Shown here piece by piece: positions 2,417 to 57,874 of a stretch of DNA of 64,000 nt. The position numbers and the translations under genes are program-made. The notes below the pieces were generated by a model. It did no database searches, was not told where the DNA came from, and was given only the letters and a program-made list of their open reading frames with translations. Position 1 is the stretch's first letter. Each line of letters starts with the position of its first letter. The DNA comes from Planctomycetota bacterium (lineage in GTDB: Bacteria > Planctomycetota > Planctomycetia > Pirellulales > Pirellulaceae), in the NCBI GenBank assembly GCA_014381825.1, contig JACNKX010000149.1, forward strand, positions 186,001 to 250,000. Reading direction: 5' to 3'.

Positions 2417-5400
2417 ATGTTCCGACTCGCGCGACGCCGACTTCGCTTGGAACGCTTGGAAGAGCGGCTTGTGCTCTCTGGAACGATTTTTTGTAGGGCG
2501 ATATTGGCTACTTTCTCCAGCCACAGCCGCCATCGCTGCACCGCTACGACGTGGTGAACGAGCTCTGGCTACCGCCGGTTTCTCTGGAAGGTGCCATCGG
2601 GAGTCCGACCGTCGCTCACGTCGATGACGATGGAATTTACGTTGGCTATGGCCAAGCGTTCAATCGCTACAATCTTGATGGGACACAGCAAACCCATTTG
2701 ATTAACGCCCAAAACAACGTGATGGCCATTCATTCCGATGGTGATTTGTTACTTCTGAATCACACAAGCGGCCTCTACGCTCGCTTTCTTAGTATCGACA
2801 AGGATACTAACACGGTCATCGACACTATCGAAAGCTATGTTGACTCCGTGTACGATTCGTCGATCGCACCGGAGAAGAATCGCATATTTGGTCGGACTCA
2901 GGGCATCAGCCCTTCCGATATCACGTATATTTCGTATGACGATCAGGGCAACTTCTCCGCCAGCGTCGATAGTCCCTATCACGGAGACTACCCTAGCGTT
3001 TCAGAAACGTGGGTGTTTCCCTCCGGTTCGAAAGTCGTGGACGATTCAGGCACGATCTACTCGACGGACTCGCTGACGCGGCTCGGCAGCTTCGGCACTA
3101 GGATCGGTGACATCGGATTCTTTGCCGGTGAAATCCCAATAATTCTCTAGGGAAATACGCTAACGGCGTACTCGTCCGCCATTTTGCCGACCGGCTCCGA
3201 GACACTAGATCACACGCCATCGAATATCTTTGTTAACGACGAGCATGTCATCACTTTTATCACGGACGCCGTTAGTGGGACAGGTTTTCAGGCGACGCTC
3301 ATTCCACTGGATAACCTCGAACCTCCGACGCCCGGCCAGCCGGTTGATCCACACGGCTTGCCATATACGCCGGATGCCATTGAAATTGCGTCTGATGGAA
3401 CGCTTCTGTTGTTCAGCAAACCGCACGAGAGCATTTTTCGCTGGGATCCGATTACGGAAAGCTATGGGGCCACGATCCCTTTGATCGGTGCTCCCGAATT
3501 CATGGCCTATTCGGCTGAGACGGAAATAGCGTATCTCGCGTATGCCTCAGGACTAATTCGCAAGATCGAATTCGATTCCGCCGATCCCCAAGAACTACCG
3601 TTCGCTGTGTTACCGAGCAGCCCGATGGGGCTGGCCACCGCCGGCTCGTTCGTGTTTGCCGTCGACCCGTCCGGCGCTTGGGTAAGTCACTACACGTTTG
3701 CGCCCGACGGAAGCCTCGTTGAAAGCGTCGAGTGGAACTACTTTTCGAGCGAGTACATCTGGAGTGAAGTCAATCAGAAAATGTACTTCTTCCGAGACGG
3801 TACGTCTCCGAACGACCTGCTGTGGGAAGAGATCAATGCTGATGGCGTCACTTATCCTGGAGAACCGCTCGGTGGGATAGGGAAAAAGGACGATTCGCCA
3901 TTGCACGGCGGCGGAGGAACTATTCATCCGATTCGCGTCTCACCCGATGGCAGTGTTGCAGTACTGGGATCGGGGCGGATTTACGATGCCCAAACTCTGG
4001 AGCCGAGCCCTTACGCCCTCGCGAATTCGATCGCTGACGCGACATGGCCCGGAGGAGAATTATTCACGGTCCGCAACATCGCGACCGTACACCAGTATCA
4101 ACGCTGGTCGTCACCTACGTACGGACAGGCAAAGATCGCTCAGTTTCCAGGTGATGGCTTCGCAGTCTTGCCGATTGCCGGAAGTCGATTGCTCGGAATC
4201 TCGATCGGAGACGACGGAATTCCTGCGTTCCGGATGCTGAACTCTAATCTTGAGGAAACGCCGCTTACAGCGTTCGATTTCGGCGACGCCCCGACGAGCA
4301 TCCAGAGCGGATTCGCCAGCAGTTACCCGACGCGAATCGAAGACGACGGTGCCCGCCACAAAGTGACTGGACTTTACCTCGGTTCCAGGATCGATTGGGA
4401 GGCTGATGGTCAGCCGGACGATCTGGCGGGCGCGAATGGCGGCGGCGATAACGCCGGCGTCCGCGACGACGAGGATGGAGTCCGATTGCTGGCGACCATT
4501 ATGACTTCAACGGTAGACTCGCCGGCCTTCAGTCTGGACATTACGGCGTCAGCCACAGGAAAGATTGATGCTTGGGTGGACTTCAATCGCGACGGTGACT
4601 GGCTCGACCCAGGTGAGCAGATTGCTATTAGTAAAAGTGTCGAAGCGGGGATGAATATGATTGCCGCCAGCGTGCCGGCCGGGAGCTCCGCAGGGGAGAC
4701 TGCGATGCGCGTCAGGCTGAGTTCCATCGGTGGACTGTCGCCCACGGGGCCTGCCGACGATGGTGAAGTCGAAGACTACATCGTGACGATTCTGGACGGC
4801 GCTGCTGCGGGAGGAGTGGCGGTTGAAATCACAGCACCAGCTCCAGGTACGCTCGACGTCGTCCAAGGCAGCGTGATCGTTCGCACTCGCGATCCCGATC
4901 GCGTGATTTTCACGGCTTCAGAAGGCAGTGTCGCTTCGATAAGTATCACCGGAACCGATGGTGACGACACGCTGAACTTGGAGAACATTCCCGGTGTCGA
5001 GGTCAGTGGCGATGCGCTCGCGGGTCATGACACGCTGGTTCTTCTTGGCAGTGACTTCTACTTCGATTTGACCGCGATCCCCGATTCAGCGATCCAAGGC
5101 ATTGAAGCGATCAACATCACTGGCAGCGGCGATAACAGTTTGACGCTGGATGTCAATGAAGTGCTCAACATCTCGCCCACTTCAGACACGTTACGAGTGC
5201 AGCACGACGTTGGTGATAGCGTGAGTTACGGGGAAGGCTGGGCCGTCGGGATCCCGCAGATCGTCGACCGTCAATACCTGCATGTGCTGACACAAGTCAG
5301 TGCTACCGTCCAAGTCGTCAATACAACTCCGTTCCACAATCCGCTGCGTGCGTTGGATACGAATCGTGACGGCAGCGTCTCGCCGCTCGATGCGCTGATC

Positions 5401-5985: not shown

Positions 5986-6165
5986 TTGTCCGAGTACTCT
6001 TTTGCGAGTTCGGTGGCCGGAGACGGTACGAACAGACCCGCCATGCGGGTCGCCCTTCAGTGCCACAACTTGCCAACCGGTTCCGTTGGTATCACCCGGG
6101 GCGCCGGCGTGGTACGGCCATCTGCCGCGTGGATGCTGGGCGCGATCAATGAAGTCGACTTTTAA
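5947..6165 (-). pseudogene. Remnant of a membrane-anchored toroid (prenyltransferase-like) gene
   Basis: Read on the minus strand, this stretch matches two parts of the intact gene at 10801-12393. The part 6165 to ~5987 gives AQHPRGRWPYHAGAPGDT and GTGWQVVALK, then in a shifted frame MAGLFVPSPATELAKEYS; the intact gene has AQHPRGGWRYHPGAPGDT, VTGWQVMALK and MAGLFVPSPTTELAKDYL. It then jumps directly to PLYDEEAVEDAF and a stop, the last residues of the intact protein. About 391 bp present in the intact gene (10841-11231) is missing. The 5' part of the gene is absent too. This is the convergent partner of the decayed surface-protein gene, so the gene pair was duplicated together. Confidence 0.85.
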
Positions 6166-9300: not shown

Positions 9301-10695
9301 CCAGATGACGACGGCGTGTTTGCCACCGCGAGCATCGTAGCCTTCGATGCCGGTTCGACCACTGCGAGCTTCTCGGTGACTGCCAGCAACGAGGCCGTTG
9401 CGACCGGGATCGGCAAGGTCGATGCGTGGATCGACTTCAATCAGGATCTCGATTGGGATGATCCCGGCGAACAGATTTACGATACGGAGGATGTTGGACC
9501 TGGAGTGAATGTTCTGCCGTTCACCGTGCCGGCTGGCGCGACGCCAGGAGAGACATACGCTCGCTTCCGGATCAGTAAATTGGGAGGCTTAACGCCGGAG
9601 GGAACTTCCTCTACCGGTGAGGTCGAAGATTACATCGTCACAATTCTTGACGGCGATGTCGAAGGAGGAGCCGCCGTGGAAGTCATGGCTCCCGATCCGG
9701 GGACGATCGAAATCATCGAAGGAAGCGTGATCATTCGGACTCGCAATCCAGACCGGATCATCTTCACGGCACCCGGCGGTACGGTTGCGTCGATCAACAT
9801 CACCGGCACGGCGGGCGACGACACATTGAATGTGGAAGACGTACCGGGGTTGATCGTCACCGGAGACGCTGGCGTTGGTCACGATACTTTGAACCTGCTG
9901 GGCGGCAGCTTTTCACTTGATCTGACCGCGATCCCCGATTCAGCGATCCAAGGCATTGAAGCGATCAACATCACTGGCAGCGGCGATAACAGTTTGACGC
10001 TGGATGTCAATGAAGTGCTCAACATCTCGCCCACTTCAGACACGTTACGAGTGCAGCACGACGTTGGTGATAGCGTGAGTTACGGGGAAGGCTGGGCCGT
10101 CGGGATCCCGCAGATCGTCGACCGTCAATACCTGCATGTGCTGACACAAGTCAGTGCTACCGTCCAAGTCGTCAATACAACTCCGTTCCACAATCCGCTG
10201 CGTGCGTTGGATACGAATCGTGACGGCAGCGTCTCGCCGCTCGATGCGCTGATCATCGTGAATCGGCTGAACTCGAGCGGGCCGGGTCCACTGTCGACGC
10301 CGCTTACGGTGGATGGGCTCACCCAATTCTTTTACGTCGACACCAACGCTGATCTATCCGTCGCGCCTATCGATGTGATTCGAGTCGTCAATTTCTTGAA
10401 CGGTTCGACCGGTGGTACGGAAGGCGAAGGAACGGTTTTTGGAGCAACGCAGTTTGCAATCGAAACGCCGCTACGCCGCGCCGCTTCTTCACGATTCCCA
10501 ATTGCTTCGATGAATTTGTCTCCTGATCATCTAATTGACGCGAACGGTATCGCAGTTCCGCGATGGGCTTCCGCTGTTGCGCCCGCGAGAATTGCCGCGA
10601 CGCGTACGGAGAGACTTGATTACGATTTCGCCACAGCGCTGGATGAATTGCTTGGACGCGATGAAGCCGGGCTGTTCGACGAGTTCTTTGAATAG
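6337..10695 (+). CDS. Giant secreted surface protein: beta-helix, four GEVED repeats, dockerin-like end
   Basis: 1452 aa from ATG 6337. The frame stays open upstream to 6241, but MKSRTWLQLLRG with a basic stretch and FEPLEDRRLLA is the usual planctomycete surface-protein N-terminus. Next come a CTLRDAIIEAN motif and Asn-rich turns typical of a right-handed parallel beta-helix (res ~60-415). Four repeats of ~165 residues follow (~424-1100), each running from an FGDAP-like start with Asp-rich stretches through DAWIDFNxDGDW to GEVEDY. After a bridging domain (VASINITGT, DDTLNVED) there is a dockerin-like EF-hand pair (~1290-1350; DTNRDGSVSPLDAL, DTNADLSVAPIDV), which should bind calcium. A local expansion (7972-8036) sits in the first repeat. 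Likely exported and cell-surface or extracellular; substrate unknown. It is convergent with the toroid gene. Confidence 0.85.
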   Translation: MKSRTWLQLLRGAVPKFSLSHRGSNRVSRARRIFFEPLEDRRLLANFHVIDRDDPDSTVTDPLESCTAVRCTLRDAIIEANLEPGADTITFAFTDLDPHDQFATVTLDAGKGPLVIQESLTITGSQVAGVQISGNNATRIFEFSVAGNYVLEGLTLSHGNGDGTDPSIDGSGGAINSAQPGTTLTIRDSLIRKNSGEFGGAIGFYAGTLNISDTAIINNEAVEVGGAMVVAGDISLTNVTVSGNRVTAPAEEEPEAGGISVQTVFNQQGSAAPSNIVIKQSTIANNSAPTAANLLLGAQNANVTVTLQNTIIAVPQGGGENVDMFATGLPMFPPPVVITSLGNNIVDDDTVTLTEASDFPNTDAHLAPLSENDCPVCPILSGHDLLHGSPAIDGGASIGITTDQRGVARPQGTAVDIGAFEMEFDFGDAKAGFPTRLIVNANGEVTEDGARHVATGLMLGATRGPEGDGVPSENADGDGADEDGVAFGVIDFEASSTASVTVDVQGGSGRLDAWIDFNQDGDWGDRGERIFTSQAVGSGANDLTFVIPGSVIPGSFNRVPGSSVPGIAQARFRLSSSGGLPPSGPAPDGEVEDYAVTILDGIDFGDAPDTGVGIGAGNYQTLEADDGARHMLGGPRLGADVDSELDGLPSDRADGDDLDKDDDDDGVTFGEFVVGQLEPQQVAITVNVQGTDGKLDAWIDFNRDGDWLDVDEQIFAAQSVVVGDNEFTFDLPPELTAGDTYARFRISTDGGLAPTGLADSGEVEDYLIEIPPGIDFGDAPDLAGGTQAGDYETLLDDDGARHIIGTLRLGGAVDVEDDAFQSAMADGDDSTDDDDEDGVTFCSILQNQKVEGTVIVDVEGAAGKLDAWIDFNNDGDWSDPSEQVLTSEDVQVGSNKLTFQVPGLLNPGTTFARFRLSTAGGLTPTGLADDGEVEDYRIEILPIGRDYGDAPDDYPNSGAWHTIGDLRLGCSVDAEFRPLTSNDAFGDGPDDDGVFATASIVAFDAGSTTASFSVTASNEAVATGIGKVDAWIDFNQDLDWDDPGEQIYDTEDVGPGVNVLPFTVPAGATPGETYARFRISKLGGLTPEGTSSTGEVEDYIVTILDGDVEGGAAVEVMAPDPGTIEIIEGSVIIRTRNPDRIIFTAPGGTVASINITGTAGDDTLNVEDVPGLIVTGDAGVGHDTLNLLGGSFSLDLTAIPDSAIQGIEAINITGSGDNSLTLDVNEVLNISPTSDTLRVQHDVGDSVSYGEGWAVGIPQIVDRQYLHVLTQVSATVQVVNTTPFHNPLRALDTNRDGSVSPLDALIIVNRLNSSGPGPLSTPLTVDGLTQFFYVDTNADLSVAPIDVIRVVNFLNGSTGGTEGEGTVFGATQFAIETPLRRAASSRFPIASMNLSPDHLIDANGIAVPRWASAVAPARIAATRTERLDYDFATALDELLGRDEAGLFDEFFE
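7972..8001 (+). repeat. 15-bp tandem duplication inside a GEVED repeat
   Basis: The 15 bases at 7972-7986 (GTCATTCCTGGAAGC) are repeated exactly at 7987-8001, encoding VIPGS twice. A looser relative follows (GSSVPG near 8020). The other three GEVED repeats are shorter here, so this is a recent local expansion. Confidence 0.85.
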
Positions 10696-10839
10696 CCGCG
10701 TGTTGTCATGACGCGTTCGTAGCCGTCAATCTGCGAGTGACGAGCGCGTTCTTCCGTATGGGGCTGATCACTCGGAGAGTGATGGCTACGGAGGGAAGCA
10801 TTAGAAGGCATCTTCGACCGCCTCTTCGCCGTACAGCGG
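9923..10839. repeat. Direct repeat copy B (917 bp; partner 5069-5985)
   Basis: Second copy of the near-identical block, covering the 3' end of the intact surface-protein gene, the spacer 10696-10800 and the last ~13 codons of the convergent toroid gene. Because it joins two intact genes, this is more likely the donor of the conversion tract than copy A. Confidence 0.92.
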
Positions 10840-12393
10840 CATGTGGCGGTAGTAGACTTCGAGGATCATGGTGCAGATGGCGGTGGTATAGAGTCGACCG
10901 CCGGCCTCGCCGTGTCTGTCGGTGAAGAACCAGCTGCCTTTCGTGTGGCCGCTTGAGGACTGCCTAGCAACCAGAAAGTCTCGCATGCGGATGTTCCATC
11001 TCTCCCAATCGCTGCCGTGGTGATGGTGTAGTACTTGGGTGGCGTAGTAGTTGAAGTACATGTCTGATGTCGAAGGGCCTTGGTTGGCGAGAAAGGCATA
11101 GGCTCCTTGGAGTCGCGAATCGTAACGCTGCCAGCCCAGGTACATGCGGAGCAGCGTCGCCACGGATGTTGCACCCGAATCCTTACCGGGTTTCAAGTAG
11201 CCGTAAAACACGCCGCCGGGATCTTGAACACTGTCCAAGTAGTCCTTTGCGAGTTCGGTGGTCGGAGACGGTACGAACAGGCCCGCCATGCGGGCGCTCT
11301 TCAGTGCCATAACTTGCCACCCAGTTACGGTTGTGTCGCCCGGCGCGCCAGGGTGGTATCGCCATCCACCGCGCGGATGCTGGGCGTGGACGATAAAGTC
11401 GATGGCCTTTTGAGCGTAGGGCCTTAGGTCTTCGTCGCCGGTCATTGCAAAAGCTTCGCAGAGTGCAATCGCCGCGATTCCTTGCGAGTACATCGTGCCT
11501 TCTTGCAAGTCGCCGCCGCGCGCCGTATCGATCATGCGACCTGTCAGATAGTAAAGGGCTCGATCAACGGTCTCTTTGTGCTTGCCTTGTTGGTGCGTAT
11601 AGCCCGCGCCGAGAAACGGTAGCAGCCCGAGTGCCGTCGCGCCAGTACTCGTCCCAACTTTTCCGGGGTGCGGGCAATTACAGTTGCCGACACCTTCTTG
11701 ATGATTCAGCCGCCAACTGCCGTCTTGACGCTGATGAGCGACGAGCCAAGCAAGCCCCCGCTCGACGGCAGCCTCGCTGGCTTGCGTGCCACCACGAGCG
11801 GCCACCAGTCTGGCTCGCTGCTCCTGCGTTCGTCCCTCAAAGCCACCGCCGGATGGCGTGTTGGTGGCTTCGAGCAATTCAGCGACCGTCGTATCATGGA
11901 ATAGCTCGGTCGGGCGCACTTCAATCACTGTCGCCGCCGGCGAAGCAAAAGGTGAATCGACATTTGGCGCGTCGGGAAGCCGGACTTCTAATGGTTTCGC
12001 TTCAATCACCTGCGGTTGCTCCGCAGCGACGCTAACATCAGGCAGCACGATTCGCGAGTCGCTGGGTTCAGGCTCGTCGGTATCGCGGATCGGCGCGACG
12101 ACCAACTCCGGTCCGCGAGGTCCGATTTCATCGACAATCGCAACCAGTGCCAAGATGATCAGCACGATTGTATGCACGACCAGACTGATGAACCCGCTGA
12201 TGGCGTCGCCTGCGAAACGGCTTTGAACGCTTTGCCAGAGCGGGCGCCTTTCCAGTTCTTCGTCGGAAACAACGACCGGCGGTGAGGTCGGCCGCCCGAT
12301 CGGCGGTGCCACAAGATACTGAACCGGCGGCTCGGCAAGCTCTTGCATCCCGGCGTCTGACGAGTTGTGTGGTGGCGACGGATTGTGCGGCAT
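10801..12393 (-). CDS. Membrane-anchored alpha-toroid (prenyltransferase/squalene-cyclase-like repeat) protein
   Basis: 530 aa from the Met at 12393 (MPHNPSPPHNSS). The open frame extends to 12618, but that part crosses a terminator hairpin and is not protein-like. The N-terminal ~75 residues are cytoplasmic and Pro-rich. One membrane helix (FISLVVHTIVLIILALVAIV) follows, then a Pro/Asp-rich linker and an alpha-toroid domain with QW-like repeats (HQRQDGSWRL, AQHPRGGWRY). It carries a C-x-C-x-H motif (NCNCPH) and an NYYATQVLHHHH segment. No DxDD motif of squalene-hopene cyclases is seen, so terpene cyclisation is doubtful. The layout resembles TonB or TolA: short inside part, one helix, long outside part. 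It is a paralogue of the next gene at 12551-14110 and converges on the surface-protein gene, sharing its 3' spacer. Confidence 0.8.
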   Translation of the reverse strand: MPHNPSPPHNSSDAGMQELAEPPVQYLVAPPIGRPTSPPVVVSDEELERRPLWQSVQSRFAGDAISGFISLVVHTIVLIILALVAIVDEIGPRGPELVVAPIRDTDEPEPSDSRIVLPDVSVAAEQPQVIEAKPLEVRLPDAPNVDSPFASPAATVIEVRPTELFHDTTVAELLEATNTPSGGGFEGRTQEQRARLVAARGGTQASEAAVERGLAWLVAHQRQDGSWRLNHQEGVGNCNCPHPGKVGTSTGATALGLLPFLGAGYTHQQGKHKETVDRALYYLTGRMIDTARGGDLQEGTMYSQGIAAIALCEAFAMTGDEDLRPYAQKAIDFIVHAQHPRGGWRYHPGAPGDTTVTGWQVMALKSARMAGLFVPSPTTELAKDYLDSVQDPGGVFYGYLKPGKDSGATSVATLLRMYLGWQRYDSRLQGAYAFLANQGPSTSDMYFNYYATQVLHHHHGSDWERWNIRMRDFLVARQSSSGHTKGSWFFTDRHGEAGGRLYTTAICTMILEVYYRHMPLYGEEAVEDAF

Positions 12394-12495
12394 CGCGCGA
12401 TTATGTGTTAGGAGAATGAAACGGTTCGGGCGCAATGCGCCAAGGAAGTATAGGTTGCGAGTGTCTGGGCAACTCCTGCAAAAGACCCTGCGCAT

Positions 12496-12526
12496 AAAAA
12501 AGGCGTGCCTGACGATCAGGCACGCC
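12496..12526 (-). terminator. Rho-independent terminator of the second toroid gene
   Basis: Perfect 11-bp stem (12502-12512 with 12516-12526) and a CGA loop. On the minus strand it is followed by six T (12496-12501). It lies 25 bp past the stop of the gene ending at 12551 and is oriented to stop that transcript before the next toroid gene. Confidence 0.9.
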
Positions 12527-12550
12527 GCATCTTGCAGCTTGGTTGGCTTC

Positions 12551-14110
12551 TTACAGCGGGAAATCTTCTTCCGCGGCTTCTTTGGCATAGATCGGCATGT
12601 GGCGGTAATAAACCTCAAGGATCATCGTAGCCATCGAAGTCACGTACAAACGACCCCCCTTCTCGTTCGCGTGACCGCCGCCTGGAACATCCCAGCTGCC
12701 GGCCATGTGTCCCGTCGGTGTTTGACTATTGATCAGCTGCTCGCGCATGACGCTGTTCCACTTTGGCCAGTACTCGTCGCCATAGTGATGCATGATCTGC
12801 GTGGCGTAGTAGTTGTAGTAGAGGTCATTTTTCGAGGGACCTAACTTGCTGATGTAATCCGCGCCTCGCTGGAGCGCTGGTTCGTCCTTCTTCCAACCGA
12901 GATACATCCGGCAAAGCAGTCCGATGGCGGTTGTTGAAGGCTTTCCTCCCGGTTCGGCGTACCCGTATTTGGACCCACTGTCTGACTGAACGGTATTGAG
13001 GAACTTGATTGCACCAGCGACCGTGTTTGGTGGGACCTGTAGATACGCCATGTGCCCGCTCTTGAGCGCCATCAGCTGCCAACCTACGACCGATGTGTCA
13101 CCTGGCTGTCTGGGCGTGTACCGCCAGCCTCCGCCGACGGGATCTTGTGCGTAAGAAATGAACGCGATCGAAGCTTGGGCTGGCGCCATTAGCTTCCTGT
13201 CGTGTGTCATTGCGTAAGCTTCACACAATGCGATCGAAGCTAATCCGTGTGCGTACATGTTGCCGCCACCTTGGATCAGCGATCCGTTGGGCTTCTCGGT
13301 GCGCACTAAAAACGCCAACCCGCGCCCTACCGTGTCCTTGTATTGTCCTTCCAAGTGCGTTTGACCTGATCCTAAGAAGGGCAACAATGCCATCGCGGTC
13401 GCTCCAGTAAAGCAGCCGTTCGTATGGCCCTGGTGCGTGCAGGCACACGGCATCCCCTCGAAGCTCCAGCGGCCATCTGGAAACTGGTGCGCGGCAAGCC
13501 ATTTCAATGCCATCGCGACCGCTTTCTCGCTTCCTTCCGAGCCGCCGTTTTGTTTGACCATCTGGCCTCGAGCCTTCGCGCTTCGGCCTTCAAGTGCGCT
13601 ACCAGTCATCGCCCCGATTTCTTTCATCAGGTCATTGCGCGGTGCGGTCTCGCTGCTGAAGTCGACGAGATCAACTTGAATGGCAGCGGCATCAACGTCC
13701 GTCGACACTTCCACTTCGACAACTTCGCTTGGAGTGTCGACCGTGCTTTGGACAACGGGTTGCTCCGCGCTGATTTCCGAGACTTCAAGAGGCTCCAGTT
13801 GGTCGAGCATCTCGAACTCTTCTACTTCCTCGACTTCGCTGGCATTTGCGACGTTCAGGATGTTCGCTGCTTTCTCCACGCTGGGGGCGAAGGTAACGAA
13901 AGCGAGAACCAGGATCGCAATGATGTGAACGATCATGCTGATCGCCCAACTCGGTACGGCGGCGAACAACAGGAAACGACGACCAACTGACTCGTACTCT
14001 TCGCCCTCTTCTTCCTCGTCATCGGTTTCCGCTTCGAGGGCCTCGGCAGACTCAGCGGCGAGCGCTTGTTCGCGAGCTACTTGATCGGGATCGTCTATCG
14101 TGGATGACAT
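12551..14110 (-). CDS. Membrane-anchored alpha-toroid protein, paralogue
   Basis: 519 aa from ATG 14110. This start is preferred over ATG 14125 because a GGAG lies 9 bases upstream of 14110 and nothing similar precedes 14125. The layout matches the gene at 10801. An acidic cytoplasmic N-terminus comes first (EALEAETDDEEEEGEEYES), then one helix (SMIVHIIAILVLAFVTF) and a long acidic Val/Glu linker. The toroid domain follows with AHQFPDGRWSF, PCACTHQG, TGATAMALLPFLGSG and NYYATQIMHHYGDEYW. The C-x-C-x-H and HH motifs are kept between the paralogues and may form a metal site; that is inference. The window also contains an ExbB/ExbD set (57034-58904), which might energise such single-helix proteins, but no genetic link is visible. 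It is divergent from the DUF1080 gene. Confidence 0.8.
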   Translation of the reverse strand: MSSTIDDPDQVAREQALAAESAEALEAETDDEEEEGEEYESVGRRFLLFAAVPSWAISMIVHIIAILVLAFVTFAPSVEKAANILNVANASEVEEVEEFEMLDQLEPLEVSEISAEQPVVQSTVDTPSEVVEVEVSTDVDAAAIQVDLVDFSSETAPRNDLMKEIGAMTGSALEGRSAKARGQMVKQNGGSEGSEKAVAMALKWLAAHQFPDGRWSFEGMPCACTHQGHTNGCFTGATAMALLPFLGSGQTHLEGQYKDTVGRGLAFLVRTEKPNGSLIQGGGNMYAHGLASIALCEAYAMTHDRKLMAPAQASIAFISYAQDPVGGGWRYTPRQPGDTSVVGWQLMALKSGHMAYLQVPPNTVAGAIKFLNTVQSDSGSKYGYAEPGGKPSTTAIGLLCRMYLGWKKDEPALQRGADYISKLGPSKNDLYYNYYATQIMHHYGDEYWPKWNSVMREQLINSQTPTGHMAGSWDVPGGGHANEKGGRLYVTSMATMILEVYYRHMPIYAKEAAEEDFPL

Positions 14111-14491: not shown

Positions 14492-15475
14492 ATGTTGAAT
14501 CGTACCGTTACTGGTGTATTGTTCGCCCTCGCCCTCTTCACGACGGCGCAGGCCAAAGGGCCAATCTTCACCGATCCAGAAAAGGCCGATGCCGACTTCG
14601 CTTTGCAAGGCGAATATCTGGGCAAACTGTCGGGTGACGGCGATACGGTCGTCTTAGGGCTTCAAGTAATCGCTCAGGGTGGAGGCAAGTTTACTTCTGT
14701 TGCCTATGTTGGCGGCCTCCCAGGTGCTGGTTGGGATGGCGATGAGAAGTTCCACGGCTCGGGCGAACTGAAGGACGGTGTTGTCATTCTACAGGGTGAC
14801 GAGGGACGCGGTGAATTGAAAGACGGCGTCGTCTCGATCACGACGGACGATGGAGCGATGACCGGCAAGCTGAAGAAGACCGCTCGCCAAAGCTCCACAC
14901 TAGGCCAAGCTCCTCCCAAAGGGGCGGTCGTACTGTTCGATGGTTCGAACTCGGATGGCTGGACCGGCGGAAAGATGACGGAAGATGGCCTGTTGATGCA
15001 GGGTTGCACGAGCAAGCAAACATTCGGCAGCCATCAATTGCATCTTGAGTTTCGCTTGCCGTTCCAGCCAGAAGATCGCGGCCAAGGCCGTGGCAATAGC
15101 GGCATCTACTTCCAAGGTCGCTACGAGGTCCAAATGCTCGATTCGTTCGGACTCCAAGGCGAGCAAAACGAATGCGGGGGTATCTATTCAGTCGCAGAAC
15201 CGAGCGTCAACATGTGTTTACCACCTCTGACGTGGCAGACCTACGATGCGGAGTTCACAGCCGCGAAGTATGACGACGCCGGGAAACTTGTGAAGAATCC
15301 GCGTATCACCGTGAAGCACAATGGCGTGGTGATTCATGACGATATCGAGTTGCCTGGAGATCGAAATACGACCGCAGCACCTCTCAAAGCCAGCGCGGAC
15401 CCTGGCCCCGTCTATTTGCAGAATCACGGTAATCCCGTCCGCTATCGCAACATCTGGGTCGTGCCGAGAGCTTGA
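14492..15475 (+). CDS. Secreted DUF1080 (3-keto-disaccharide hydrolase family) protein
   Basis: 327 aa. Start set at ATG 14492: it has GGAG about 8 bases upstream and opens with a signal peptide (MLNRTVTGVLFALALFTTAQAKG). Residues ~25-135 form an unassigned N-terminal part with two GELKDGVV repeats. From ~146 the DUF1080 domain runs through VVLFDGSNSDGW, GNSGIYFQGRYEVQMLDS, NECGGIY and YLQNHGNPVRYRNIWV. This is a concanavalin-like beta-sandwich common in planctomycetes, with some members acting on 3-keto-glycosides. It is likely periplasmic or surface-bound and part of the carbohydrate-degrading repertoire. Substrate is not predictable from sequence. Confidence 0.88.
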   Translation: MLNRTVTGVLFALALFTTAQAKGPIFTDPEKADADFALQGEYLGKLSGDGDTVVLGLQVIAQGGGKFTSVAYVGGLPGAGWDGDEKFHGSGELKDGVVILQGDEGRGELKDGVVSITTDDGAMTGKLKKTARQSSTLGQAPPKGAVVLFDGSNSDGWTGGKMTEDGLLMQGCTSKQTFGSHQLHLEFRLPFQPEDRGQGRGNSGIYFQGRYEVQMLDSFGLQGEQNECGGIYSVAEPSVNMCLPPLTWQTYDAEFTAAKYDDAGKLVKNPRITVKHNGVVIHDDIELPGDRNTTAAPLKASADPGPVYLQNHGNPVRYRNIWVVPRA

Positions 15476-15569
15476 AATTTGACGTTCGTAGAGAACTCGT
15501 CGCCCCCGAAGTGTCGAAACCACCGTGCCAACCCTCATGAATTGCCGTAAGACGCTTCACCGGGACGGG

Positions 15570-15598
15570 TTACCTAGCCTGGGAGATTTGGCTACAAT
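15570..15598 (+). promoter_or_regulatory. Candidate sigma-70 promoter for rpmG
   Basis: TTACCT (15570-15575) and TACAAT (15593-15598) are separated by 17 bases, about 60 bases before the rpmG start. The -10 is good and the -35 is weak. Confidence 0.4.
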
Positions 15599-15656
15599 CG
15601 GGCGGTCAAGACCAACCAGCAAGCTAAACGGCTGATGAACTGAAGGAGCCAATTCG

Positions 15657-15824
15657 ATGGCCGGACGAAGTAAGAAGAAGGCAGATACCGTGTTTCTCGT
15701 GTGCGAAGAGACAGGTGATTACAACTACAGCCTGCGCCGCAAGCCTGGTGGCGAAAAGCTACGCCTGAAGAAATTTAGCCCGCGACTGCAACGCCACACC
15801 TTGCACGTCGAGAAGAAGAAGTAG
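15657..15824 (+). CDS. rpmG: 50S ribosomal protein L33
   Basis: 55 aa. ATG 15657 is preceded by a clear AAGGAG (from 15643). The protein begins [20 protein letters not shown] and continues with [33 protein letters not shown]. The pattern of LKKF followed by R-x-HTLH and a basic end is that of L33. Only one Cys remains (VFLVCEETG), so it should not bind zinc through four cysteines as some L33 forms do. It stands alone between a DUF1080 gene and recJ and has its own probable promoter. It encodes a small basic protein of the large ribosomal subunit near the E site. Confidence 0.85.
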
Positions 15825-15838
15825 CGGTTACGCGCAGT

Positions 15839-15899
15839 CGTAGTGGTGGCTTCCAGCCGCCACGGTACTTGGAGGTGGCGGCTGGAAGCCATCACTACG
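15839..15899. repeat. Long palindromic repeat (REP-like), also possible rpmG terminator
   Basis: Arms of 25 bp (15839-15863 and 15875-15899) match at 24 positions around an 11-base loop. It starts 14 bases after the rpmG stop. It shares its plan with the palindrome at 27390-27446: both arms begin GTAG, contain TGG and CTTCCAG, and end the right arm with CTAC. This suggests members of one dispersed element family. No T-run follows, so termination is uncertain. Confidence 0.8.
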
Positions 15900-15936
15900 G
15901 GCCTCTGGACGAACTCGCATCACGACAGGGATCGTC

Positions 15937-17703
15937 ATGACAAAACGCTGGCGAATTCATCCGCATGATGCCGGGCGAATCGAGTCGCTTGAGAAGCAAG
16001 CCGGCATTTCCCCGATCGTCGCCCAGCTGTTGCTTTGTCGAGGTATCGGCGCGACCGAAGATGTTCAGCGATTCCTCGATCCGAAAATGAGCGAGTTGCG
16101 CGATCCCGAGCTGCTTCCCGGGATTCCCGATGCAGCCGATCGAGTCTTCGCTGCGATTCAAGCGAAACGTCGGATAGTGATCTACGGCGATTACGACGCG
16201 GACGGAATGACCGCGACGGCGATTCTGTATCGCTGTCTGCAATTGCTTGGCGCTGATGTCGGTTACTACGTCCCGAATCGGCTCGAAGAAGGTTATGGAT
16301 TAAACGACGACGCGCTCCGGAAACTGTCCGAACGTGGAGCATCGCTAGTCATTTCTGTCGACTGTGGCATTGCGAGCGTCCGCGAAGCGAAAACCGCTCG
16401 CGAGATCGGTCTTGAGCTAATCATCACCGATCATCACCAGTTCGCCGACGAACTGCCCGATGCGGCCGCGATCGTACATCCGCGTTTGCCCGGCTCGAAC
16501 TATCCCTTTGCTGGCTTGTGTGGAGCGGGTGTCGCATTCAAGTTGGCTTGGGCGCTCTGCTGTCGCGCGAGCGAATCGAAGCGAGTCAGTGATCGGATGC
16601 GCAACTTTTTGCTCACGGCGATCGGCATCGCTGCAATTGGCACGGTTGCCGACGTCGTTCCGTTGGTTGACGAAAACCGTGTGCTCGTCCGTTTCGGACT
16701 GAACAGTTTGCAATCACAGCCAACGATCGGTTTGAAGGCCTTGCTTCGCGTCACGAAGTTGCAAGACAAGCCCGCCTTGGGAAGCGAAGACATCGGGTTC
16801 AGCCTCGCCCCGCGGCTGAATGCAGCGGGTCGGCTTGGTCAAGCCCAACTTGGTGTCGAGTTGCTGACGACCGACTCGGTCGAGCGTGCCGATGCACTCG
16901 CCGACTACATCCACGAGTTGAACAGCAGTCGCGACAGTCTCGAACGAAGCGTCTACCTCGCTGCAAACAAACAGATCAAAGAACAGTTCGATTCAAACGA
17001 TTCTGCCTTTGTGTTGGCTGGACGTGGTTGGCACGCGGGAGTGATTGGCATCGTGGCCGGGCGATTGGCTGAAAAGTTCAATCGGCCTGTCGTCTTGCTC
17101 TCGATCGACGAATTGGGAGCAAAGCCCGCGACTGGATCAGCTCGCTCGGCATCCGGCTTGAATCTTCATGAAGCGTTTGCCCAGTGTACTGAGCACCTGA
17201 TTGCTCACGGCGGACATGCGGCTGCGGCAGGATTGAAGGTCGAGGAAGCAAAGATCGACGATTTTCGCATTGCGTTTCGCGAAGTCGTCGAGAGCGAGGT
17301 AGCGGTCCAAGACCGCACACCGGAAGTCCGCATCGATGCCGAAGCTTCGTTGAGTCAACTAACTCTACAAACAGTACAACAACTGGAGCGGATGGCTCCA
17401 TTCGGCGACTCCAACCCTCGCCCCGTTTTGTGTGCGACCGGCGTCGAACTGGCCGAAGCTCCTCGTCACCTGGGCAGCGGTGAACGTCATATTTCCGTCA
17501 AAGTAAAGCAACACAACGTGACATTGCGCGCGGTGGGCTTTGGGAAGGGCGATTGGTACGAAGATCTGTCCAAGCTGGATGGGCTGATCGATATCGCTTA
17601 TCGCCCCGTCATCAACGAGTTTCGTGGCCGTCGCAATGTCGAGATGCATCTGGTTGATTGGCGGATGAGTCAGCAACCGGCGATGGCGGCAAGCAACGGT
17701 TAA
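15937..17703 (+). CDS. recJ: Single-stranded-DNA-specific exonuclease RecJ
   Basis: 588 aa, usual RecJ length. It degrades single-stranded DNA 5' to 3' in RecF-pathway recombination, mismatch repair and base excision repair. The DHH-family metal sites are present: motif I GDYDADGMTAT (D85, D87, D89) and the DHHQ motif at 165-168. A glycine-rich GLCGAGVAFKLAWAL follows. The DHHA1 part has GWHAGVIGIVAGRLAEKFNRP, with ASGLNLHEAF and HGGHAAAAGLKVE. An OB-like C-terminal region ends with YRPVINEFRGRRNVEMHLVDWR. It appears complete. The small hypothetical gene 22 bp downstream may share its transcript. Confidence 0.97.
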   Translation: MTKRWRIHPHDAGRIESLEKQAGISPIVAQLLLCRGIGATEDVQRFLDPKMSELRDPELLPGIPDAADRVFAAIQAKRRIVIYGDYDADGMTATAILYRCLQLLGADVGYYVPNRLEEGYGLNDDALRKLSERGASLVISVDCGIASVREAKTAREIGLELIITDHHQFADELPDAAAIVHPRLPGSNYPFAGLCGAGVAFKLAWALCCRASESKRVSDRMRNFLLTAIGIAAIGTVADVVPLVDENRVLVRFGLNSLQSQPTIGLKALLRVTKLQDKPALGSEDIGFSLAPRLNAAGRLGQAQLGVELLTTDSVERADALADYIHELNSSRDSLERSVYLAANKQIKEQFDSNDSAFVLAGRGWHAGVIGIVAGRLAEKFNRPVVLLSIDELGAKPATGSARSASGLNLHEAFAQCTEHLIAHGGHAAAAGLKVEEAKIDDFRIAFREVVESEVAVQDRTPEVRIDAEASLSQLTLQTVQQLERMAPFGDSNPRPVLCATGVELAEAPRHLGSGERHISVKVKQHNVTLRAVGFGKGDWYEDLSKLDGLIDIAYRPVINEFRGRRNVEMHLVDWRMSQQPAMAASNG

Positions 17704-50077: not shown

Positions 50078-52240
50078 ATGTGTGACGAACGGTCTGAACA
50101 ACATCTCGACGCCGAGTTGCGGAATGTTGAAGTTCCCGGGGAGCTGTTCGCGCGTGCGAAACAAGTGACTCAGCTCACGGACGCCGCGATTGATTCAGCG
50201 ATTTGTTCGCTCGAGACACCGAACGGTCTTGCAACGCGAGTAAGGATCGTCGTCGCCGATGCGTCGCTCGACGAGTCAATTCGGCTGGTCGAAGTTCCAG
50301 AGGATCTGCTCGCCAGTTTGCGAATCATTCCCGAAGTTCGTCGCGATTCGACGCTTCGGCGTTTCGTGTTGGCTGCTTCTTTGTTGTTGGCGATGACAGG
50401 AAGTTTCTTCGGCGCGCTCGGAGGATTAATGGCGTCGCTTCGACCTGTGGCCGACGCGGCGACCTCGCTCTACGTCATTGACGTTGGCCCGACGCAGCTT
50501 ATGGCGATGCCTTCCGATCCCGTTCGCATCTCGTCCGACAAGATGTCGAGTCCGTTCGAGGGAAGAACGGTTCCGGTGGTTTGGAAAGGTGGCCCGTTGC
50601 AGGTCGATCTAGTAAGAATTGATGCAACCATGACGCCAGGTCCCGCCGGACAGTTGATTCGCGAAGTCGAGCGAGGCTTAGAACTCGGCCGTGATGTCTT
50701 GCTGATGCGATGGGATGCGTATGCCTCGCCACAACACGCTTCGCAGCGACTTCCCGAATTGGAGCAGATTCGGCGCCCGCCCAGGGCGGGCGTTGATCTG
50801 CCAATGGTCGCAGGCTACGACCGCTCCTTCTTGCAGCGATCGTCGACGCATCCGCCAGTGTTTATTGCGGGCCAAGAAGTTTTGAAGTCGATACGCGTGC
50901 CGCTTTCGACGTCGGTTGCAAGTGTCCGTCGGACAGAGCAATTGCTGAAGCTTGATCGGGTACCCGACGCACAAGAGATTCGCACGGAGGACTTTCTCGC
51001 GGTCGTTGACTACGGCTTTGCTCCGCCCAACGGCAACGATGTCTCTGTTACGATCATGGCGGGGCCGGCGGTGTTCGGTGACCAAGATCACTCGCTCGTA
51101 CAGGTCGGTGTGAAGGCGGCTCGTCGCCTGGGTGATTCGGCGACGCATCTGTCGGTGGTTGTTGATGTCTCGCAAAGCATGCGTCAGCAACGACACATCG
51201 ATGTCGTTCGCGATTCGTTACGAACGATGTTTGAACATCTCGGACCGGGCGATTCAATTTCGTTAATCGCAGTGAATCACGAAGTCACGCAGCAGCTCGA
51301 TTTCGCGACTTCCGAACAGCAGGATCTGGTCTCGGACTGGCTCGCTGCGCTGCGAGCAGGTGGAGGCGATAGATTGGCAGTCGGAGTTCAAGCGGGATTA
51401 TCATTAGCGCTCGAGTCGCCTTTCGACGATAGTATCGCGAAAGAATTGGTCGTTGTGACGGATGGTGCGGCAAGATCTTCGCGCGGCGAGCGCGCTCAAC
51501 TTAGTGAGTTGCTTCGCGTTGCAGCGGAAAGTGGCGTTCAGGCCACGGTGCTACAGTTGGGGGATGATACGACGGCGGTCGCTCCGAGTGTGGATGGGAG
51601 TCCGACTCCCGAAGGCGGCCTTCACTTGGCGACCGTGTCCTCGGATGAGTTGTCGTGGAAGTTGGTTGAGCTTGTAACGGGCGTTTCGTCGGTTGTGGCC
51701 CGTCAGGCACTTGTTCACGTCGAATTCAACCCGAAAGCGGTACGCGCCTATCGCTTGATCGGGCATGGACCGTTGGCGACAACTGGCTTGGGGGAAGAGG
51801 TCTGGGCGACCGATCTGCGATCAGCTGAAGAGGCAACCTTGCTGTTTGAGGTCTGGCTTCGCGATAGTCTCGGGGACGAAATCGCTTCGGCGACCATGCA
51901 TTGGATTGCACCAGAATCTAGCGAGGCGAAGCACAGCGGAGTCGCGTCGCTCAGCCGATACGGTGTGACCACCAGGCTTTCAGAGGCGCCAGCGTCCCTT
52001 CAAGCCGCTGCCATTGCAGCTGAAATTGGCCAACGATTTCGCGGAACTGGCAGCTTCGAGTTAGGTGGTGAAGCTGGTTTCCGCGAGCGGCGGAAGTCTG
52101 CTAGTTGGGCAGGAATCATGGACGCTGCCGCCCATATTGCCCCGGAGGTTGCTGGGAGAGAGGAATTTCAACGGTTGCTAGAGTTGGCTCGAAAGATGGA
52201 AGAACAACGCCGCCATCAACGAGCGTCAACGACACTGTGA
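50078..52240 (+). CDS. Membrane vWA-domain protein (YfbK-like), probable anti-sigma-type partner
   Basis: 720 aa. The N-terminal ~110 residues are cytoplasmic and repeat the phrase VEVPGEL/VEVPEDL, followed by one membrane helix (FVLAASLLLAMTGSFFGALGGLMASL). Outside, a YfbK-like region precedes a vWA domain whose MIDAS reads DVSQS (D363-S365-S367) with VVTDGAA. The C-terminus has GEEVWATDLRSAEEATLLFE and ALAIAAEIGQ-like helices typical of YfbK (DUF3520) proteins. The inside-helix-outside topology and the adjacent ECF factor suggest it passes an outside signal to the sigma factor; that role is inferred from position. Confidence 0.8.
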   Translation: MCDERSEQHLDAELRNVEVPGELFARAKQVTQLTDAAIDSAICSLETPNGLATRVRIVVADASLDESIRLVEVPEDLLASLRIIPEVRRDSTLRRFVLAASLLLAMTGSFFGALGGLMASLRPVADAATSLYVIDVGPTQLMAMPSDPVRISSDKMSSPFEGRTVPVVWKGGPLQVDLVRIDATMTPGPAGQLIREVERGLELGRDVLLMRWDAYASPQHASQRLPELEQIRRPPRAGVDLPMVAGYDRSFLQRSSTHPPVFIAGQEVLKSIRVPLSTSVASVRRTEQLLKLDRVPDAQEIRTEDFLAVVDYGFAPPNGNDVSVTIMAGPAVFGDQDHSLVQVGVKAARRLGDSATHLSVVVDVSQSMRQQRHIDVVRDSLRTMFEHLGPGDSISLIAVNHEVTQQLDFATSEQQDLVSDWLAALRAGGGDRLAVGVQAGLSLALESPFDDSIAKELVVVTDGAARSSRGERAQLSELLRVAAESGVQATVLQLGDDTTAVAPSVDGSPTPEGGLHLATVSSDELSWKLVELVTGVSSVVARQALVHVEFNPKAVRAYRLIGHGPLATTGLGEEVWATDLRSAEEATLLFEVWLRDSLGDEIASATMHWIAPESSEAKHSGVASLSRYGVTTRLSEAPASLQAAAIAAEIGQRFRGTGSFELGGEAGFRERRKSASWAGIMDAAAHIAPEVAGREEFQRLLELARKMEEQRRHQRASTTL

Positions 52241-52521
52241 GGGAACATGTGGGTGCGAAATCAATCGACGGTGACGAGTGTCCCCGGCTCTCCGAAATCT
52301 CATTTAGCTTAACATTACTGCTGGTCGATGGTTGATAGTCAAACGGTTTGACTATATTCTGGAGTGTAACTGCCTTTTGTGTCTGTTGTTGTGTCGAATT
52401 GTCCGGAACCATTTCGATGCAATTCGACGGTCGAAGCCGCATCTCTTGTGGTGTCGTTCTAGGCTCAGACACAACGCAAACGCTCCTATCTTCACTGCGA
52501 GCGATTAAAAGGAATTAATAG
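52241..52521. other. Leader region with two inverted repeats, 281 bp
   Basis: The spacer before the TPR/ExbBD operon. It contains a perfect inverted repeat ATAGTCAAA-CGG-TTTGACTAT (52335-52355) and a second, wider one, GTCGAATTG (52393-52401) and CAATTCGAC (52430-52438), with a 28-base gap. A Shine-Dalgarno-like AAAAGGA lies just before ATG 52522. No ORF is convincing here. Confidence 0.6.
52335..52355. promoter_or_regulatory. Candidate operator, 9-bp inverted repeat
   Basis: Perfect 9-bp arms around CGG, about 167 bases before the TPR operon. The right arm contains TTGACT, a possible -35 element, so a bound repressor would block it. I see no matching strong -10. Confidence 0.4.
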
Positions 52522-55500
52522 ATGAAGACGCTGCCTAATTCGTTGCCGATTCCTCGAAGTTGGTTCGAACTTGTTTTACTGTTGAGCCTACTTGGAGTGG
52601 GACTGGCTGGCAGTTCAAGTCGCGAACTCGTCGCTGCAGAGCCTGCAAGAGAGTTTCTCAACGGTCTGCGCGATCGTGGTTTTCATGACATTGCTTTGGA
52701 CTATTTGGCGATGATGGAGACAAGTTCGCTTGCTCCTGCTGAGTTGAAGGAAATCATTCAGTATGAGAAGGCCGTCACGCTTATTCAGGGCTCTCGGGCG
52801 CAACGGGATCAGGCTATCCGCGAGAAGTTCCTGGATGATGCACAAGTACTTTTGAAACAATTCACGGAGAGCCCTCGGACGGCGCAACACGCCCTTGCCA
52901 ACTCGGCGCGCAGCCAACTCGGCAACTTGATCGTTGAACGAGCGCGGATGAAGGTCGAAGCTTCTAAGAAGGGCGATAAGCCGAAGCTGCTCAAGGAAGC
53001 GAATGCGCTTTACGAGCAAGGGTACGGCGTCTTCACCGGTATGCAAGAAGCTGTTCGTGTACAGCTAGAGCGAATTCCAAAAGTGCTGGATCTGAAGGAC
53101 AAGCGTCAAGCTTCCATGGCCGAGCGGCGGACGCAGCTTCGCGCGGACTATTTGCAGACACAGTTGACTGCTGCGGCGATTCGCGAAGAGATGGCTGACA
53201 CCGTCCCGGAAGGTTCGGAAGAGTTTAAGAGGTTATTGACGGAAGCCGCAACGCAGTACGACGAAATCTACAAGAAGTATCGTACGCGATTAGCGGGGCT
53301 TTACGCGCGAATGTATCAAGGCCGCGCCAATCAGCGAATCGGTAAGCTCCAAGATGCGCTCGGATACTACGGCGAGTTGCTTGACCAGCCCGATGAACCC
53401 GAAGCATTTCGATTGCTGAAAACCAAGACGCTTCGATTGGCGATGGAGGGATGGTTGCATCCGTCGGAAAAGAAATACGTCGAGGCGATCAAGCGTGGTG
53501 CCGACTGGGTGAAGAAGTCTCGCCCGACTGACGATCGCAACGTGGATTGGTTGGCGATTCGATTGAGCTTGGCGAAAGCGTACAAAATGCAAGCGGACGC
53601 TGCGGATGTTGGCGAAAAACGCATCATCACTCAAGCCACTTCGGATGCGAAGAAGCAGGCGAATTTCGTTGCCAGTAAAGGCGGTGAGTTTCAGGAGGAA
53701 GCAAGGCAGTTAGTCGCGGCGTTGGGTGGGCCTGATCGCACGGGCGAGAAGCCGGACCCGCAGACGTTCGACGAAGCAAAAGCTGCTGGCAAGGAGGCGC
53801 TCGATTCGATACAGACGGCTTCGTTGGTCGTCTCGCAGGTGCCTGCCCGTATTGCCAAAGAGAAGGACGAGAAGATCAAGGCCGAACTACAGGCACAGCT
53901 CGTCGAGGCAAAAAGCACGCTGGATAACGCTCGTTACGACGCGATGATGTACTATCAACTCGCTCTGCGGCTAGTGAACGAGGAAACATCGATCGACGAT
54001 ATCAATGTCGTGCGTTACTTCTTGTGTTATCTCTATTATCTCGAGAAGGATTATTACAGAGCCGCGTTGATGGGCGAGTTTGTTGCCCGACGTTACCCAG
54101 ATAGTGCAGGGGCACGACAATGTGCAAAGATCGCGATGGCTTGCTATATCCAGATCTATGGCGAGACCAATCAATCTGCCGGCGCGCTCTTCAAAGAACT
54201 CGACCAGGACACAGACGGTTCGATTGCTGGTGAAGAATTATCTTCGCTGCCAGATATTGCCCGCGGCGCTGACAAGAATTCCGACGAGAAAGTGACAAGC
54301 GTTGAACTCGCAGATCGGCTGGTTGAGTTTGACGTGGCCCACATCGTTTCTGTCGCGGAGTACGTCGCCGACAAATGGTCAGACCAACCGGAAGCGGAAG
54401 AAGCCTTGAATACTTTAGTGCCGTTCATGATCAATGCAGGGGAATTGGATCGCGCACAACAGTTCCTCGCGAGGATACCGGAGTCCTCTCCCAAACGTGG
54501 CGATTCTGAGCTGAAAACCGGCCAAGCAATCTGGGGTACGTATCTTCGTGAAACACAACAACTGCAAAAATGGGAAGCGGATGGAGCTCCCACGGGTGCT
54601 GACATCGGAGCAAAGCGAGAAGAGCTGAATAACCTGAAGATGAAAGCCGAGGAAATTCTCGCTGCGGGCTATGGGCGGATCCCGGCTGCGGCAAAATCAA
54701 GTCGCACGATGGTCACGGCGTTACTTTCTTTAGCGCAGGCTTATCTCGAATCTCAACAAGCAGCGAAGGCGGTTGAGGTCTTAGAGAACCCAACTTTCGG
54801 CCCGCTCGTCTTGGTCAACAAGAACGATTCTGCGGCACAAGAGTCGGCGGTTATCGAAGAGATCTACAAGACCGCGTTGCGAGCGTACATCTCATCGCTG
54901 GGCGGAGCGGACGGAGAAGGCGCCATTGAAAAAGCGAAGGGCGTGATGGACAAGATGAAGGCGACGCTTGGCGGCACGCCGGAAGGTGAGAAGCGGCTCG
55001 TCTCGGTTTACGTTAACTTAGCACGGGATTTGGAGACACAGCTTGAATCAGCGACACCCGACGTAAAGCGTTCGCTTTCACAGGGATTCGAGACGTTCCT
55101 GCTGCAGCTGAACGAAGGGGCATCGGAGTTGAGCGTCTTGAATTGGGTCGCCGAGTCGTTCTCGAAGCTCGGAAAAAGTTTGGATAATGGTCAAGCGTTG
55201 AATGAGGACGCCAAGAAGTATTACCAAGCGTCGCTTGACGCGTTTCAGAACATTATTGACAAGGTAGATCTTGCGCCAGCGATGAAGGTTCAGGTTCAGC
55301 TTCGAATCGCGAGCGTACAAGGTGAAATGCGAGACTTTGAGAAAGCGGTCGGAACTTTCGAGGAGATCCTCGCGGCGAACGCGAGCGCATTGAATGTACA
55401 GGTGGAGGCTGTCAAGTTGATTGAGCTGTGGGCCAAACAGCCTGGACAGGAAGAGAAATACAAAGAGGCGATCGTCGGCGTTCGCAAAGAGGGTAATCCC

Positions 55501-55797
55501 AAGCCGATAATCTGGGGTTGGGGCGGCATTTCGCAAAAGACCGCCGGGAACTCAAAGTTCAAAGAGACATTCTACGAGGCTCGCCTCCACCTCGCTCAAT
55601 GCCGATACGACCACGCGATGACAAAGGACGGCGCAGCGAAAGATGAACTCTTGAAGAAAGCGAAGCAGGACGTGAAGATAACGAACCAGCTGTATCCAGA
55701 ACTTGGTGGTGAACGGATGAAGCCGAACTATGACAGCCTGTTGAAGAAAATCCAGAGTGCTTTGGGTGAACAGCCGGTTGGACTCCCGGGATTGTGA
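52522..55797 (+). CDS. Large exported TPR-repeat protein with an EF-hand pair
   Basis: 1091 aa with a signal peptide (WFELVLLLSLLGVGLAGSSS). Almost all of it is helical and repeat-like, as in TPR/Sel1-like scaffolds (LKEIIQYEKAVTLIQG, KLQDALGYYGELLDQPDEPE, YYRAALMGEFVARRYPDSAG, MRDFEKAVGTFEEILAAN). Between helical repeats, at ~559-602, sits a calcium-binding pair: loop one DQDTDGSIAGEE is canonical, loop two DKNSDEKVTSVE keeps the acidic ligands but lacks the central Gly. First gene of a five-gene operon with another TPR protein, ExbB and two ExbD. Likely a periplasmic scaffold; specific function unknown. Confidence 0.82.
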   Translation: MKTLPNSLPIPRSWFELVLLLSLLGVGLAGSSSRELVAAEPAREFLNGLRDRGFHDIALDYLAMMETSSLAPAELKEIIQYEKAVTLIQGSRAQRDQAIREKFLDDAQVLLKQFTESPRTAQHALANSARSQLGNLIVERARMKVEASKKGDKPKLLKEANALYEQGYGVFTGMQEAVRVQLERIPKVLDLKDKRQASMAERRTQLRADYLQTQLTAAAIREEMADTVPEGSEEFKRLLTEAATQYDEIYKKYRTRLAGLYARMYQGRANQRIGKLQDALGYYGELLDQPDEPEAFRLLKTKTLRLAMEGWLHPSEKKYVEAIKRGADWVKKSRPTDDRNVDWLAIRLSLAKAYKMQADAADVGEKRIITQATSDAKKQANFVASKGGEFQEEARQLVAALGGPDRTGEKPDPQTFDEAKAAGKEALDSIQTASLVVSQVPARIAKEKDEKIKAELQAQLVEAKSTLDNARYDAMMYYQLALRLVNEETSIDDINVVRYFLCYLYYLEKDYYRAALMGEFVARRYPDSAGARQCAKIAMACYIQIYGETNQSAGALFKELDQDTDGSIAGEELSSLPDIARGADKNSDEKVTSVELADRLVEFDVAHIVSVAEYVADKWSDQPEAEEALNTLVPFMINAGELDRAQQFLARIPESSPKRGDSELKTGQAIWGTYLRETQQLQKWEADGAPTGADIGAKREELNNLKMKAEEILAAGYGRIPAAAKSSRTMVTALLSLAQAYLESQQAAKAVEVLENPTFGPLVLVNKNDSAAQESAVIEEIYKTALRAYISSLGGADGEGAIEKAKGVMDKMKATLGGTPEGEKRLVSVYVNLARDLETQLESATPDVKRSLSQGFETFLLQLNEGASELSVLNWVAESFSKLGKSLDNGQALNEDAKKYYQASLDAFQNIIDKVDLAPAMKVQVQLRIASVQGEMRDFEKAVGTFEEILAANASALNVQVEAVKLIELWAKQPGQEEKYKEAIVGVRKEGNPKPIIWGWGGISQKTAGNSKFKETFYEARLHLAQCRYDHAMTKDGAAKDELLKKAKQDVKITNQLYPELGGERMKPNYDSLLKKIQSALGEQPVGLPGL

Positions 55798-57831: not shown

Positions 57832-57874
57832 CCCCGAACGAGAGTAACCCAATCTGCCGACTTCGAGGTTCATC

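Follow-up and report, generated by a model that had tools for sequence, protein, structure and literature searches.

In TonB and TolA the transmembrane (TM) helix carries the SHLS motif (Ser-x3-His-x6-Leu-x3-Ser), whose first Ser and His contact ExbB/TolQ and whose Leu and last Ser are less conserved in the Ton system (PMC12215075); the D-box peptide of E. coli TonB comprises residues 43-54, that is, 23-34 positions past His20 (PMC10907165). The vWA force transducers described by Williams-Jones et al. (2025) combine a TM helix bearing SHLS, a linker and a non-TonB head, and in the Planctomycetes-Verrucomicrobia-Chlamydiae (PVC) group they are encoded downstream of TPR, tolQ-like and tolR-like genes (PMC12204202). 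Among planctomycetes, a response to salt is reported for exbB/exbD of Rhodopirellula baltica (PMC2754498). Here we analyzed a stretch of 64,000 nucleotides (the window) from the 9.7 Mb genome of a Planctomycetota bacterium (assembly GCA_014381825.1, contig JACNKX010000149.1, positions 186,001 to 250,000), in which two neighboring genes encode the membrane-anchored α/α toroid proteins P0002 and P0001. We consider it likely that both are force transducers of the Ton/Tol type with a toroid as head, members of a planctomycete class, and toroid-headed proteins of this kind are probably driven by proton-powered ExbB/ExbD motors.

Transmembrane helix and linker of the toroid proteins

The features of the two genes are listed below in window coordinates; residue numbers of P0001 start at the residue after Met.

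12551-14110, minus strand: toroid protein 2 (P0002, 519 amino acids), ATG at 14110, stop codon ending at 12551 (open reading frame (ORF), AlphaFold toroid)
13892-13951, minus strand: P0002 TM helix, residues 54-73, with S58-x3-H62-x6-L69 (AlphaFold, column conservation in 95 proteins)
13838-13867, minus strand: P0002 residues 82-91, β-prone stretch after the TM helix, motor-box-like (position-specific peak of β-propensity, 148 proteins)
12593-13543, minus strand: P0002 α/α toroid, residues 190-506 (AlphaFold, structure comparison)
13433-13447, minus strand: P0002 C-A-C-T-H loop, residues 222-226, variable in the family (5 of 171 relatives have C-x-C-x-H)
12496-12526, minus strand: good intrinsic terminator between the P0002 and P0001 genes (12526-12502, then six T)
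10801-12393, minus strand: toroid protein 1 (P0001), ATG at 12393, stop codon ending at 10801 (ORF, AlphaFold)
12127-12201, minus strand: P0001 TM helix region with S69-x3-H73-x6-L80 (S-x3-H scan, AlphaFold)
12088-12111, minus strand: P0001 residues 94-101, motor-box-like stretch (β-propensity analysis)
10837-11793, minus strand: P0001 α/α toroid, residues 200-518 (AlphaFold)

The two proteins have 41% identity over 480 alignment columns and share the same layout, in which a tail of cytoplasmic type is followed by a single TM helix, a long linker rich in acidic residues or Pro and a C-terminal toroid. AlphaFold gave for both a confident toroid of 12 helices and a linker mostly below 50 in the predicted local distance difference test (pLDDT), with the TM helix at residues 54-73 of P0002 and within a helix spanning residues 51-88 of P0001. 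This layout had been proposed in the initial annotation, and the ORFs and models bear it out, as they do the TonB-like tethering of the toroid to the membrane, with the head probably outside; that annotation missed that the resemblance to TonB extends to sequence and gene order. Its view of the genes as paired holds in that a tandem toroid pair recurs in 18 of the 66 related loci long enough to reveal one, but the good terminator lies between the two genes, so they may be separate transcripts.

The resemblance to TonB is concentrated in a few positions. In an alignment of P0002 and 94 relatives, which were assembled without regard to the motif and include a few signal-peptide proteins, S58 is kept in 98%, H62 in 97% and L69 in 80% of the 95 proteins, and every other column of residues 50-124 reaches 71% or less. 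The Ser and His are also invariant in two further alignments (A3 and A4), which do not count as independent evidence because their members are mostly or only S-x3-H proteins. S-x3-H was found in the TM helix of 90 of the 94 TM-bearing relatives around named contigs, of 59 of the 73 toroids from the window organism and 13 relatives, and in 40 of 50 toroids from other orders and classes, a count taken over all toroids, anchored or not. As a control, 537 TM segments were taken from the regions of the 73-toroid sample, and 14 had it. The exceptions among the toroids are mainly secreted members and a clade with three TM helices. In the forms with several TM helices that were inspected, positive charges precede the last one by eye, which suggests that this helix runs from inside to outside.

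The linker also has a fixed feature. In 148 proteins, its β-propensity reaches a maximum 18-28 residues past the TM His, with z about 15 relative to shuffled linkers, a position that, judged from sequence, would be motor-box-like when set beside the D-box of TonB. On the side of the putative partner, a Ser resembling the TM1 Ser of ExbB/TolQ is present in the 80% consensus of our ExbB set; the Trp that contacts TonB/TolA in TM1 of E. coli ExbB/TolQ (PMC12215075) is absent from it.

A partial, decayed copy of the toroid coding region of P0001 was observed at 5987-6158 of the window, flanked by two genes for GEVED/dockerin surface proteins. It matches 11232-11402 with 92% identity over 63 nucleotides and 79% over 111 nucleotides, and inside the two flanking genes there is a 67% repeat (4708-5007 and 9562-9861). 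Copy and repeat are perhaps the remains of a segmental duplication.

Gene order and the candidate motor

Relatives among named contigs are nearly all from Planctomycetota, and toroid matches were found in 160 of 195 genomes sampled from the phylum and in all 20 genomes of a closer sample (the window genome and 19 relatives). Two collections of regions were picked by hand from these listings: set a, with 57 regions from 13 of the 19 relatives, which favors contiguous assemblies and omits at least one match near the chosen E-value level (G004:C82), and set c, with 40 regions from other orders and classes taken from the 195-genome listing. Toroid matches shorter than 220 amino acids, duplicates with identical proteins and ORFs cut by a contig end were left out of the counts. 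In the window genome itself 16 places match P0002, of which 14 were analyzed (the weak matches L017 and L018 were left aside), eight of them anchored and six secreted-looking by signal peptide.

Toroid genes were scored as linked when they start at most 300 bp from, or overlap by at most 200 bp, an upstream ExbD gene on the same strand. By this rule, a toroid lies directly downstream of ExbD in 21 of the 75 distinct toroids of set a and the own genome, and in 13 of the 50 toroids of set c; three of the eight anchored toroids of the own genome follow ExbB and ExbD, with gaps of 37-126 bp between ExbD and toroid. These 34 linked relatives comprise two clades, one with two TM helices (22 of 23 members linked) and one of PD40/3-TM proteins (11 of 14), plus a lone member, L234, that stands apart on the tree. 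ExbB adjoins ExbD in 20 of the 21 linked cases of set a and in 2 of the 13 of set c; of the remaining 11, three have an ExbB-ExbD-ExbD set some 4 kb upstream. In nine of the 22 linked cases with a detected ExbB the gene preceding ExbB was scanned, and each time it had TPR matches. Of 51 ExbD-like matches, 49 contain a pattern for the proton-binding segment of ExbD. Since tonB itself co-occurs infrequently with exbB-exbD in the data of PMC12204202, we take such neighbors as supportive and not as required.

Two operons, in L080 and L088, have the order ExbB-ExbD-ExbD-X-toroid-1000-amino-acid protein, and their toroids, with a single TM helix, are sister (0.86) to the clade containing P0001 and P0002. 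Beside the operon of L088 there is a vWA protein with an S-x3-H TM helix (15106-16158, PF13519, E 4.9e-5), so that both types of head occur in one locus. The window carries the following genes related to these operons.

52522-55797, plus strand: 1091-amino-acid protein, with distant relatives adjoining the toroid in L080 and L088 (24-26% identity, E 1.5e-8 and 4.6e-9)
55757-56902, plus strand: TPR protein upstream of ExbB (TPR_16, E 3e-11)
57022-57831, plus strand: ExbB/TolQ-type proton channel of the putative motor (PF01618, E 4.1e-28; best set a match in the toroid operon of L080)
57875-58321, plus strand: ExbD 1 of the candidate motor (PF02472, E 8.5e-19)
58404-58904, plus strand: ExbD 2 of the candidate motor (PF02472, E 2.9e-13)

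The whole cluster (50078-58904) reads VWA, 1091-amino-acid protein, TPR, ExbB, ExbD, ExbD. Its ExbB, both ExbDs and the 1091-amino-acid protein have their best set a matches in L080/L088, and because of this ExbB-ExbD-ExbD at 57022-58904 is our candidate for the motor of the window pair, which would then be encoded away from its transducers; in set c, one ExbB matches the window ExbB about as well as those of L080/L088. The VWA protein of the cluster (50078-52240) was considered as the transducer of this motor and rejected, as its TM helix has no S-x3-H.

In the mechanism that we propose, the last TM helix, running from inside to outside, would dock on an ExbB/TolQ-type proton channel through S-x3-H-x6-L, and the β-prone stretch just outside the membrane would be caught by the periplasmic domains of ExbD/TolR. 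Proton flow would then pull or turn the linker, and the α/α toroid, in the place of the C-terminal domain of TonB/TolA, would act as the working head, taking hold of a partner or ligand by means of a conserved rim.

Several observations weigh against this proposal. The strongest is that the subclade of the window pair lost, or never had, the linkage to a motor: no ExbB/ExbD adjoins the pair in its flanks within the window, the nearest being about 43 kb away, and 80 orthologous loci gave no ExbD match and one ExbB-like ORF. For this reason, the case for coupling in the subclade depends on the conserved TM helix, and the sequence of that helix could have been conserved for some purpose that has nothing to do with a motor. 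The final Ser of SHLS is not kept either (T73 in P0002, in a column whose best residue reaches 25%), the motif drifts to C/A-x3-H or S-x3-N in the 3-TM clade, and some members of the family are secreted and have no TM anchor.

Among these are six secreted-looking paralogues of the own genome without a TM anchor (L025-L030); judged by eye, the signal sequences of at least two of them are Tat-like. Other members carry additional elements: in one toroid subclass (L019, L051, L053, L054 and L058) the N-terminal tail has a zinc-ribbon-like C-x-C-x2-C ... C-x2-C before the TM helix, and an ExbBD-linked toroid protein (L021:8076-11567, G000:C66) has a TolB-like PD40 β-propeller before its S-x3-H helix. 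One of 34 members scanned matches TolB-propeller and OmpA-type models, presumably this same protein.

The toroid head and alternative readings

The solved fold nearest to the P0002 model is squalene-hopene cyclase 2sqc (Z 26.7, root mean square deviation 2.9, 280 aligned residues, 16% identity), followed by sugar epimerases, GH76 and AprG, and such a shared fold alone shows no function. Across 171 toroids, and in P0002 numbering, the QW-type repeat residues Q209/W215, Q322/W329 and Q463/W473 are near-invariant, as are H252, Y286, E297, D338, Y384, Y431, Y435, W448, R487 and T491. When set against the AlphaFold list of helices, many of them sit at the N-terminus of every other helix or immediately ahead of it, for which reason they may form one conserved rim or pocket.

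The alternative that survives best is that these proteins are membrane-tethered periplasmic enzymes or lectins, descended from terpene cyclases or (α/α)6 sugar enzymes, with the TonB-type helix as a borrowed anchor and no need of a motor. The pocket-like appearance of the near-invariant residues outside the repeats (H252, Y286, E297, D338 and others), the fold common to sugar epimerases, GH76 and AprG, the lack of motor linkage in the window subclade and the existence of secreted, unanchored paralogues would all agree with it. However, a plain anchor needs no Ser and His, no β-prone stretch at a fixed distance and no ExbBD operons, whereas in the TM helix the Ser and His are kept at 97-98% while the rest drifts, and we judge this alternative rather unlikely.

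A zinc-dependent modifying enzyme, similar to protein prenyltransferases or LanC, had been suggested in the initial annotation from conserved C-x-C-x-H and HH segments that could bind a metal. Both segments do exist in the two window proteins (C222, C224, H226, H441 and H442 in P0002), but they are not conserved: among the 171 toroids, 106 have a C-x(1-6)-C pair in the loop, 6 a single Cys and 59 none, so that 65 lack even a pair, and C-x-C-x-H itself occurs in 5. The pair, where present, is most often C-x3-C, equally compatible with a disulfide loop. At the second position of HH, 116 of 172 aligned rows have His and 48 have Gln. Furthermore, in the predicted order of helices HH belongs to the C-terminal end of an inner helix and the Cys loop to the N-terminal end of a different one, so that the two would be on opposite faces of the toroid. 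On the conservation across the 171 toroids we reject the metal site and the prenyltransferase and LanC readings, to which we give very little credence.

Sequence similarity alone would label P0001 and P0002 as relatives of sterol-type cyclases. With TIGR01787 they score 39 bits (P0002, E 3.9e-10) and 38.2 bits, against a cut-off of 322.7, and with Pfam SQHop_cyclase_C P0002 scores 24.2 bits, below the cut-off of 26.1, and P0001 32 bits, above it, over 40 residues. A membrane-bound squalene or terpene cyclase, for which these weak matches and the fold would speak, is the least credible of the readings, as each profile is matched only in part and with scores far below the NCBIfam cut-offs, DxDD is found in only 2 of 171 relatives and in neither window protein by eye, and two separate loci of the genome match PF13249 above its cut-off; the initial annotation was right in noting the missing DxDD and in setting aside a DxDD terpene cyclase. 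The family shares with squalene-hopene cyclase the α/α toroid fold and QW-type repeats, and differs from it in having one toroid, no DxDD and a TonB-type TM helix with a linker.

Apart from partial matches of the squalene-cyclase type, the scanned members of the family fit no model of Pfam or NCBIfam, and neither TonB_C (at E up to 0.1) nor VWA matches P0001 or P0002 in Pfam. PL10 pectate lyase and GH88 were discarded as identities for their weak matches.

Comparison with known transducers

All 20 genomes of the closer sample have toroids, and in five of them both TonB_C and Plug went undetected; four of these five have an ExbD-toroid operon in the regions examined. The window genome has two TonB_C and seven Plug matches, so in it classical Ton systems coexist with the toroids. 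It is possible, although we propose it only tentatively, that Planctomycetota multiplied the Ton/Tol principle and in certain genomes replaced it, in such a way that each Pirellulales-like genome would have several toroid-headed, proton-driven transducers (eight anchored ones here) served by a few shared ExbBD motors and acting on different envelope partners, some genomes being without a detectable TonB or TonB-dependent receptor, and the toroid being perhaps an actively pulled enzyme or a grip for glycans or lipids. We know of no precedent for a motor-driven catalytic head.

Our reading of P0001 and P0002 as force transducers provides a large, unnamed family of cyclase-like proteins with a motor-coupled role that can be tested, and bears on how outer-membrane and periplasmic processes could be powered in the unusual envelope of planctomycetes, above all in those without TonB_C or a TonB-dependent receptor. 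The toroid would be the second head fold, besides vWA, among the few non-TonB, non-TolA heads proposed for ExbBD/TolQR motors. The words "toroid" and "prenyltransferase" do not occur in the main text of the vWA work (PMC12204202), and no report of toroid transducers was recognized in the titles and abstract openings searched, with subscription papers and preprints outside the scope.

The toroid proteins differ from TonB and TolA in the head, of around 310 residues against a small C-terminal domain, and in not keeping the last Ser of SHLS, and no transporter or TolB/Pal partner was identified for them. They resemble both in the cytoplasmic N-terminus, the TM helix with S-x3-H-x6-L, the β-prone stretch after it, the flexible linker and the globular head, and, in several lineages, in having ExbB/ExbD as gene neighbors. 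The closest published parallel is that of the vWA transducers, which, as described in PMC12204202, have the same combination of a TM helix with SHLS, a linker, a non-TonB head and a context of TPR, tolQ-like and tolR-like genes, the difference being a vWA head there and a toroid head here.

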